Below are positions 52,999 to 58,596 of a stretch of DNA of 64,000 bases, in pieces. The DNA is taken from assembly GCA_938743325.2 (NCBI GenBank), contig OW568887.1, positions 546,503-610,502 of the forward strand, given 5' to 3'. Numbering within the stretch: the stretch's first letter is position 1; each line of letters opens with the position of its first letter. The notes below the pieces were generated by a model, which saw only the letters and a list, made by a program, of their open reading frames with translations, had not been told where the DNA came from and did no database searches. Made by a program: the position numbers and the translations under genes. This stretch comes from Pycnococcus provasolii. Lineage: Eukaryota > Chlorophyta > Pseudoscourfieldiophyceae > Pseudoscourfieldiales > Pycnococcaceae.

Positions 52999-55900
52999 AT
53001 GGCCCCCGCGCCAGCCGCGACTTTCGGCCGACCGCGCGCCGCGCGGGCGCGCATCATGTGGCTGCTGCTGCTCGCCGCCGCGCTTCCGATGGCAGCCGGC
53101 GCGCCCGCCGCGCGGCGCCTGCCGACCTACGACGAGTGCCGCGAAGCTCTTCGGCGCTTGAACTTCAACGTCTACGACTACAAGCGCTACCCGCACTTCT
53201 TCCGCAACGACTCGTTCATACACCTCGCGCAGGCGGGTATCTACAAGAGCCCTACGGATATCGAAGAGTACGTGTTGTTCGCAGATCCGCAAGGCTCGCC
53301 GTACATGGACGGTAACTACGTCCAAACCAAGCCACAATGCATGAAAAACAAACTGTTGAAACCGACAGAAGAAGGGTTGTGCCAGCTAGGTGTCTACTCA
53401 ATGACAGAATACAATCTTAACCCGACAATGGCCAACGGCACGCTCCGCACTTTGATAAGCAGTCTCGTCTTTGTGGACCCTGTGGATAACAAGGTACCAG
53501 CGTGGCACGTGTATTTCCCGCGCTCGTTCCTCGAGAAGTTTTTCACGATGCTCGCGACGCCGCAGGTGCGTTCGTACATCTGTGACACGCTCGAGAAGTG
53601 CCCAGACGCATGGAAAAAGAGCGGGCTTGACGCCATGCCGCGAGGGACGTGCGAGGATCGCCTCGCCGTGCTTCCCGTTGCCGAAACGGACATGTTGCAT
53701 ATCGACGGAAACTCATTCGGCTGCCGGCTGCTCCACGCCGCGTTTGCTTCAAAGAACAGCAAGCACTGTCCGCACATCAGTCTCGAACCCATGATGGATG
53801 TCAAAGGCAAGACCAAGTGCTCAATTAGCGCCGGGACACAGTTGAACGCTTTGTTTGGTCAGGAGTTCTTAGACGAGATCCTCGATCATGCTGATGAAAT
53901 GGGCATGCCCTTCATCCCGCGCACGGCCGACGCGCCAAAGGGCGGCAGCGAGTTCTGGCTTCCAACTGATGTGCATTCCCGCGTTGCCTCCGAGAAGAAA
54001 ACGGATGACCCTTCCACCGCCAAGTCCGCCGAGCCTCCGTCGTGGTCTACACATGCGCTCGACCGCCATGTGCTCGACGCATATCCGCGCGCACGGTGCA
54101 ACGACGGAAGGCCTGCGGCGTACTACAGCGATGCGGCAGCAGGCGCCGGTGGATCCAAGCAGCGCGCGGTGATCTACTTCGAGGGTGGGGGCGTGTGCTA
54201 CAATTCGTCGCAATGCATGACTCGCCTCCTTTCGCCAAGCTCCGCTGGACCCTTGGGTCCTCCGAAGCACAGCTTCAATGCGTACATGATGGGTGTGGAC
54301 GATGGCGTACCCGGTGCAATGACATCCGATGCATGGCCTCTTCGTCTTGGCGTGAGCGGCGTGCTGTCCAACAAGGCTTTGCACAACCCTACCATGCACG
54401 ACTGGCTGCACGTGGTGATCCCATACTGCACTTCCGATTTTCACATCGGCGATCATTGTGGCATCGCGACGAACGCCGTGACTGACGCCGCGTTCTCCGG
54501 GGCGGACCAGATCCTACACAGGAACAAAACGCTCACAGCCACGGGATACTGCGGTGCGCATGTCGTCGACGCGGTACTCGACCACCTCCTCGAGACACAT
54601 CCCGCAATTCGCAACATGGAGCAGGTGGCGCTGTTCGGCTCGAGCGCCGGAGGCATCGCGGCCGCGGTACACGCCGACGCGTGGGCCGCCAGCCTCCCAG
54701 GTGCTGACGTTCGCGCGGTCGTTGACAGCAGTTGGTTCCCAGCCACATCACGCACGTTTGCCACGAAGAACGCCGTGCAGGAGTCCGGCGAGTCTGAGCA
54801 ACTTATCGAGTACGCGCGCCTGGCGAACGCGATCAATGCATCGCAACGAGTCAGCGCCACGTGCGTGGCCGAGCAGTCTGCGACGTTGAGCCTTCACGCC
54901 CCGCTCGCGACGTCGGATGACTCTGCCCCACCGGCGCTCAGCGACGTTGCCGTCGGCGCGTGCCTTCTCCTCGAGAACATTCTTCCGCATCTCGCGACGC
55001 CTGCTTGGGTCGTCCAGGGGCTGTACGACGTGTACTCCGTGAATCCAATGACGGGGCGCGTCGACCCGAATTACTTGAAGAATGACGTCTTCCTCAACAG
55101 CCTGGTTCTGCTAAAGTGGTTCGAAAGCTACGGCCCATCGACGATCGAAGCGCTCGAGAGTGCGGCGCTCCGCAGAGAAAATGCTCATCACCGCATCTTC
55201 GCGCCAAGCTGCATTATGCACGGCATGACGTATCACGACGGACGGTCGCTCAAGAAAGTGCTCAAGCATGACAAAGACGGCCCCGATTGGAGTTCGAAAC
55301 TCACAATCATGAATCCGTCCGATACGTGCGAGACGATTGACGTGCCCGGAGTGGGGAGTGACTTCCCATGGCTGAGTGAGGATCCGCTGACAGCGCTGCG
55401 GACACTTCACATCAACGGGACGTCCGCGTACAATCACATGACTGGCGTTCTCGCGACGCCGCGCGAGGAGCTCCGAAAGTCGACCTTATCTCGCCATGGA
55501 ATCCTCTTCGCGGACATCTGCCGTGGACTGAACTGCAACCCGTCGTGCAGTGCGGTGCTGAAGTTTCCATCGTCGAGCTTCGGCAGTCGAGGGTTCTCCG
55601 GATTCGAAGGTGGCGTATCCAGGATTTTGGTGAATGCATTGGTCGTGCTCGTAATTGGTGGCATGGCTGCTCTGGATTTGGCCTTCATCGTGCAGAGCTT
55701 TGTGCGACTGCGGCAGTGGGCGGATTCGCGTCGGCGGCTCGAAGGTTCAGAGTCTCCAGCAAGCCCCATGGTCACCGAACTCGCATTTGAACCTCGCAAG
55801 TCGGAGGATGATGTCCACCTTGAGATTCAGGATATTGAGGTTGGCGACAAATCGCCGCCATCGGGCGGAAACCTTCGTAAGACTTTCACTCGTAAACAAA

Positions 55901-58596: not shown

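Follow-up and report, generated by a model that had tools for sequence, protein, structure and literature searches.

An uninterrupted reading frame of 1865 codons in Pycnococcus provasolii, a picoplanktonic marine green alga, joins a hydrolase of the PAE/Notum type to an ABCG-type ATPase and a diverged membrane domain in one predicted polypeptide. Judged by sequence, this fusion is not a chance junction, because a second fusion is encoded in the same genome and database relatives carry both Pfam domains. The reading that we tentatively favour is that of a half-size ABCG exporter whose tethered, outward-facing esterase would remove an acyl or acetyl group from the exported molecule. The parts are each known. 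We did not find an enzyme at the ABCG ectodomain position described, though such sequences are present in databases, and a search of titles and abstracts in the open PMC literature returned no description of a PAE/Notum-ABC or GMC-ABC fusion.

A single frame encodes a hydrolase and a transporter

The window is the whole stretch of DNA analysed here, 64,000 nt in length, and all positions refer to it. The fusion gene and the features of its product are as follows.

52999..58596 (+): ORF of the fusion protein, 1865 codons and amino acids; a single open frame with an ATG start and no internal stop, with relatives in frame
52999..53112 (+): signal-peptide-like segment at the N-terminus, residues 1-38, with its hydrophobic core at 19-37 (hydropathy, segment 17-38)
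53104..53928 (+): N-terminal module, residues about 36-310, with the motif GIYKSPTDIEEY ... CRLLH ... HCPH ... KC (relative in Triparma, a weaker one in Cymbomonas)
54049..55278 (+): PAE/Notum-type hydrolase domain, residues about 351-760 (PF03283, Notum matches)
54178..54192 (+): FEGGG oxyanion loop, residues 394-398 (motif)
54637..54654 (+): GSSAGG nucleophile elbow from residue 547, with Ser549 (motif, alignments, Notum profile)
55027..55029 (+): predicted catalytic Asp677 in GLYDVY (alignments, Notum profile)
55219..55221 (+): predicted catalytic His741 in SCIMH (motif, alignments, Notum profile)
55519..55548 (+): juxtamembrane cysteine motif, residues 841-850 (C841, C846, C850), kept in fusion proteins
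55600..55710 (+): single membrane helix, residues 868-904, separating the esterase from the ATPase (hydropathy, strong)
55711..56058 (+): predicted cytosolic linker, residues 905-1020, which varies among relatives (alignment)
56059..56898 (+): ABCG-type nucleotide-binding domain, residues about 1021-1300 (ABC_tran, family models, solved relatives)
56170..56193 (+): Walker A, GASGCGKS, residue 1058 (motif)
56515..56529 (+): ABC signature, ISGGQ, residue 1173 (motif)
56587..56610 (+): end of Walker B and D-loop, DEPTSGLD, residue 1197 (motif)
57379..58263 (+): ABC-2/ABCG-type membrane domain, residues about 1461-1755 (PF01061 below cut-off, hydropathy)

From N- to C-terminus the layout is therefore a signal-peptide-like start, the N-terminal module, the PAE/Notum hydrolase, a membrane helix, the ABCG-type ATPase and the diverged membrane domain. 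Across 52999-58596 the other five frames contain 20 to 75 stops each, and the computed chance of a stop-free run this long at this base composition is about 10^-29. The frame is also conserved: the database relative P0001 is 97% identical to the window protein over its whole length (94-100% in the three linkers), and P0002, at 61% identity, is continuous across the junctions until its own end inside the ATPase. From the open frame and its conservation we infer a single mRNA for the whole fusion ORF. Both Pfam domains score above cut-off within that frame, PF03283 (PAE) with 117 bits against 26.6 and ABC_tran with 75.7 bits against 25. The sequence-only reading of this DNA had claimed an uninterrupted frame and a hydrolase-transporter fusion in one polypeptide, and both claims are borne out.

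The hydrolase domain aligns with the Notum catalytic triad

Taken alone, the hydrolase domain of the window protein matches Notum chains (E 4.1e-9). A five-member PAE profile, made of this domain, its paralogue on contig C9 and three other PAE matches from the same genome (one of these three too short for the Asp and His), matches Notum 4uza (E 6.6e-55), and the motifs of Ser, Asp and His line up. GSSAGG is matched in the 4uza alignment, as are the YD-motif aspartate, the last C-x-x-H and the oxyanion glycines. On the basis of this profile alignment the triad was assigned as Ser549-Asp677-His741, opposite 4uza residues that we take to be the catalytic residues of Notum. Alignment with the Notum/PAE triad had been named beforehand as a test of the hydrolase assignment, and these three residues fell into register. 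The GSSAGG nucleophile seen in the earlier reading is present at residue 547, while the oxyanion loop, which that reading gave as GEGGG, is in fact FEGGG.

Conservation of the triad was then assessed in an alignment of 10 rows that includes the window protein (A3). The triad Ser is present in 9/10 rows, the Asp in 10/10 and the His in 9/10. In a second alignment a serine stands opposite the triad Asp in P0021, which we take for a misalignment. The relative P0014 carries Asn at both the Ser and the His of the esterase triad and has kept the fusion. Its esterase is probably a pseudo-enzyme on a transporter, and this loss indicates that catalysis is not needed in every fusion. Other PAE-matching frames in the same genome (C22, C2 and C9:768539) are 481 to 554 codons long.

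A membrane helix leads into a complete ABCG-type ATPase

The ATPase motif set is complete, with an HQP motif at residue 1230 in addition to those given above, and the claim of a membrane helix followed by an ABCG ATPase with all motifs stands. The top family models for the ATPase are TIGR00955 (white/ABCG; 215 bits, cut-off 736) and TIGR00956 (PDR; 156 bits, cut-off 1959), both scoring below these whole-protein cut-offs, and the best solved ABC relatives are PDR-type, ABCG8, ABCG25, ABCG1 and ABCG2 chains. For the membrane domain, claimed earlier without qualification, hydrophobic segments follow the ATPase (strong at 1483-1509, 1568-1621 and 1724-1746, with weaker ones between) and may form a six-helix ABC-2/ABCG-type domain; its Pfam model, PF01061 (ABC2_membrane), scores 19.9 bits, under the cut-off of 26.9.

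An arginine cluster, RQWADSRRR, lies C-terminal to the single helix on the ATPase side, and the window protein has 22 cysteines before residue 905 and 11 after it. The cysteine distribution and the arginine cluster are consistent with a topology in which the esterase faces outward and the ATPase inward; this orientation had been proposed before, and the sequence supports it. The juxtamembrane cysteines lie outside the matched Pfam stretch, and C841 and C846 are kept in 9/9 relatives and C850 in 8/9.

The N-terminal module matches two stretches of an ABC protein from Triparma

The first 300 residues had been described as an unrecognised domain. The module indeed has no Pfam match, but it does have a relative, since BLASTP aligns it (E 8e-5) with two stretches of a 3051-residue ABC protein of Triparma strigata (P0059). 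Against these two stretches the module gave z 10.1 and 4.9, with 0/500 and 1/500 shuffles scoring as high, and four control stretches in the same test gave z from -0.7 to 0.7. Profile methods count against the link: alignment of two shallow profiles with hhalign gave E 0.003 at a probability of only 10%, and HMM profiles of the module side and the Triparma side found only their own members among 161 proteins and the window. It is the BLASTP match and the shuffles that carry the link. The N-terminal part of P0059, which matches the module twice, contains no enzyme that Pfam recognises above cut-off.

The motif C-R-x-LH ... HC-x-H ... C is also found in P0034, a GMC oxidoreductase-ABC protein of Cymbomonas, where the match to the module is weak (z 2.0, 24/500 shuffles as high, BLASTP E 0.70). 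PF28386 is listed by the database for both P0034 and P0059, and our own Pfam scan did not report it. None of 1219 candidates of similar length, a set to which longer proteins do not belong, matched the module at E <= 0.001, and the genome holds no second copy of it. The module is absent from the C9 paralogue, from P0003 and from the distant fusions.

The fusion recurs in the same genome and in database relatives

The order of PAE and ABC domains extends beyond this protein, recurring in the C9 paralogue and in database relatives. The second fusion of the genome, at C9:8546-13054, comprises about 1500 codons in one frame and lacks the N-terminal module. It shares 40% identity with the window protein over the esterase and 31% over the ABC part, its triad and ATPase motifs are readable, and P0003 is a close copy of it. 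A search for relatives scored 8000 candidates and found 127; among the 120 listed, PF03283 and PF00005 are both present in 9, namely P0001 (97%), P0002 (61%), P0003, a protein of the diatom Seminavis robusta and five more. Two of the nine, P0001 and P0003, are close copies of the window gene and the C9 gene. In Seminavis robusta both domains lie in one annotated protein, PAE first. A profile search for further fusions among 43 proteins returned only P0002 and P0003, which were already known.

The architecture around the domains is likewise retained. A hydrophobic helix lies between esterase and ATPase in 8/8 relatives examined and a signal-like start is present in 6/8, the exceptions being P0021 and P0056 (P0063 was outside both sets). 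The helix of P0021 runs directly into the ATPase, perhaps through a fault in the gene model. Six ATPase positions were checked and are kept in 8/8 fusion relatives long enough to show them, and P0002, which covers three of the six, keeps all three.

An ATPase tree was built from 43 rows with 8 fusions (P0001 was not entered, and the match filter removed P0063). A single group (100/99) holds the window protein together with P0002 and P0003, which places the fusion before the divergence of the two gene copies. The group with Seminavis falls elsewhere in the tree, without resolved support. Four changes are needed to account for the fusions on this tree and a single origin appears in 0% of bootstraps; holding the 8 fusions together was not rejected (p-AU 0.48; 38 rows, five left out).

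A viral or bacterial origin was also considered, and no relative was encoded in the candidate stretches of viral contigs or prokaryote genomes that were checked (8 viral and 9 prokaryote with a single-sequence query, 6 viral with the N-terminal module alignment). This negative is weak because a single-sequence query finds close relatives only.

Export with surface deacylation and its alternatives

If the protein is an exporter with a tethered esterase, it would be a half-size ABCG transporter with two functions, located in the secretory pathway or the plasma membrane, with an ectodomain in two parts, the Cys/His module and a PAE/Notum serine hydrolase that has its triad residues. The ABCG part would pair with a second half-transporter, and the ATPase would drive an ester-bearing molecule (lipid, glycolipid or glycan) outward. 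On the far side the esterase would remove an acyl or acetyl group, and this deacylation could bring about product release or render export one-way. In this model the N-terminal module would be a binding part, for substrate or for the wall, and it appears dispensable given that the C9 paralogue does without it. Coupling of export to hydrolysis is something we infer from the covalent linkage only, and the chief indication that catalysis is not strictly needed comes from P0014, which has lost the triad. An exporter of sporopollenin precursors was disfavoured, since the wall of Pycnococcus provasolii lacks sporopollenin according to the genome note (PMC11130579).

Alternatively, the esterase could act independently on extracellular glycans of the wall or scales (acetylated acidic sugars), with the ABC part mainly anchoring and delivering it and no substrate common to the two. 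Members of the PAE family have acetylated wall glycans as substrates, and the scale and wall chemistry of related algae features acidic, acetylated sugars; the other PAE frames on C22, C2 and C9 suggest that such substrates may be present here. However, a mere anchor would not need the ATPase positions that are kept throughout the relatives long enough to be scored (8/8). We regard independent action as unlikely, though it ranks next after the exporter.

The ectodomain might instead serve the transporter chiefly in binding or gating, with catalysis secondary or lost, as in non-enzyme ABCG ectodomains. P0014, which keeps the fusion with Asn at the triad Ser and His, fits this role, as does P0017, in which a Cys-rich N-terminal part without a Pfam-recognised enzyme is followed by a helix and the ATPase. 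Yet the remaining 9 rows of A3, some of them only about 20% identical, all retain both Ser and His, and we consider a binding or gating ectodomain distinctly improbable.

We consider it very unlikely that the protein works in uptake, an external ester being hydrolysed at the surface and then imported through the ABC part. An outward enzyme joined to a pump would also fit scavenging, but eukaryotic ABCG proteins are mostly exporters, with a few importers in plants such as ABCG40. Finally, an artefact, with neighbouring genes mistaken for a single frame or a faulty assembly join, is extremely improbable and was rejected on the conserved frame. The same junction occurs in frame in the C9 paralogue and in database relatives (P0001, 97% identical at full length; P0002, 61% and continuous; the annotated diatom protein, with PAE leading), a recurrence that argues against two genes.

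Comparison with known systems

The window protein resembles the Notum/PAE family in its PF03283 match, GSSAGG elbow, register of Asp and His, oxyanion GG and signal-peptide-like start; unlike that family, it continues into an ABCG-type transporter in the same chain. To our knowledge, Notum/PAE members are secreted or lumenal and without a transporter. With ABCG half-transporters (ABCG1/2/5/8, plant ABCG16/25) and the PDR proteins of yeast and Candida it shares an ATPase placed before the membrane domain and the same motifs, whereas its 865-residue N-terminal part with an enzyme and an extra helix, and its diverged membrane domain, set it apart. Yeast Adp1 and plant ABCG24/28 are ABCG proteins with a cysteine-rich, non-enzyme N-terminal ectodomain and an extra helix. 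This type, seen here in P0017, has the same order of ectodomain, helix, ATPase and membrane domain, but the ectodomain of the window protein carries a PAE enzyme. P0017, the only stand-in for the type in the ATPase tree, does not join the window protein there, in a backbone without resolution.

P0034 of Cymbomonas tetramitiformis and P0059 of Triparma are also algal ABC proteins with long N-terminal parts; P0059 matches the module twice, and P0034 has a similar Cys/His motif. They differ in that P0034 has a GMC oxidoreductase (694-1207) in place of PAE, with its ATPase at 1319-1502, and P0059 has no Pfam-recognised enzyme above cut-off. P0034 is itself another enzyme-ABC fusion in one chain, in an alga.

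It is possible, though we would stop short of calling it probable, that there is a recurrent algal class of exo-enzyme ABCG proteins, in which a half-size ABCG follows one helix and an outward enzyme, and a single chain would perform both export and surface chemistry. Its members would be the PAE/Notum fusions of a green alga and a diatom and the GMC oxidoreductase fusion of Cymbomonas, some of which would share the Cys/His module. For most algal ABCG pumps we know of no identified substrate, and the substrate class of the esterase would reveal the cargo of the pump. In the 'Rosetta stone' sense, the fusion is also evidence that PAE and ABCG proteins that exist as separate chains elsewhere may cooperate. 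As a Notum relative on a lipid-type pump outside the animals, it is relevant to the role of the family before Wnt deacylation.

Genomic setting

An LHCA3-like sequence matches best to chlorophyll a/b proteins of plant and green-algal type. According to the genome note, the Pycnococcus provasolii assembly comprises 44 chromosomes and two organelles in 32.2 Mb (PMC11130579). The window reaches the end of its contig, which is marked by one further feature.

63703..64000 (+): telomeric TTAGGG array closing the contig; the fusion gene ends 5.1 kb before it

The C9 contig begins with a TTAGGG repeat, and its fusion gene lies about 8.3 kb from that repeat; by these distances both fusion genes are subtelomeric. 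An Rfam scan of the 64,000-nt window gave no match, and ten neighbouring frames scanned in the window gave no pathway hint.

Repeats are present at both loci. Copies of a 1185-bp inverted repeat, with 99.5% identity, lie on either side of the C9 fusion gene (C9:7524-8705 and C9:13419-14600), and a rearranged piece of the 5' end of that gene adjoins the repeat. In the window, the subtelomeric stretch 60867-61407 holds 3.5 copies of a 153-bp unit at 99% identity, and interstitial TTAGGG arrays lie at 59764-59879 and 63130-63168. Farther from the contig end, the window contains a frame for a glycosyltransferase of family 29 (sialyltransferase-like) at 12153-14573 on the reverse strand and one for a PAS - histidine kinase - response regulator hybrid at 36494-40177 on the forward strand.
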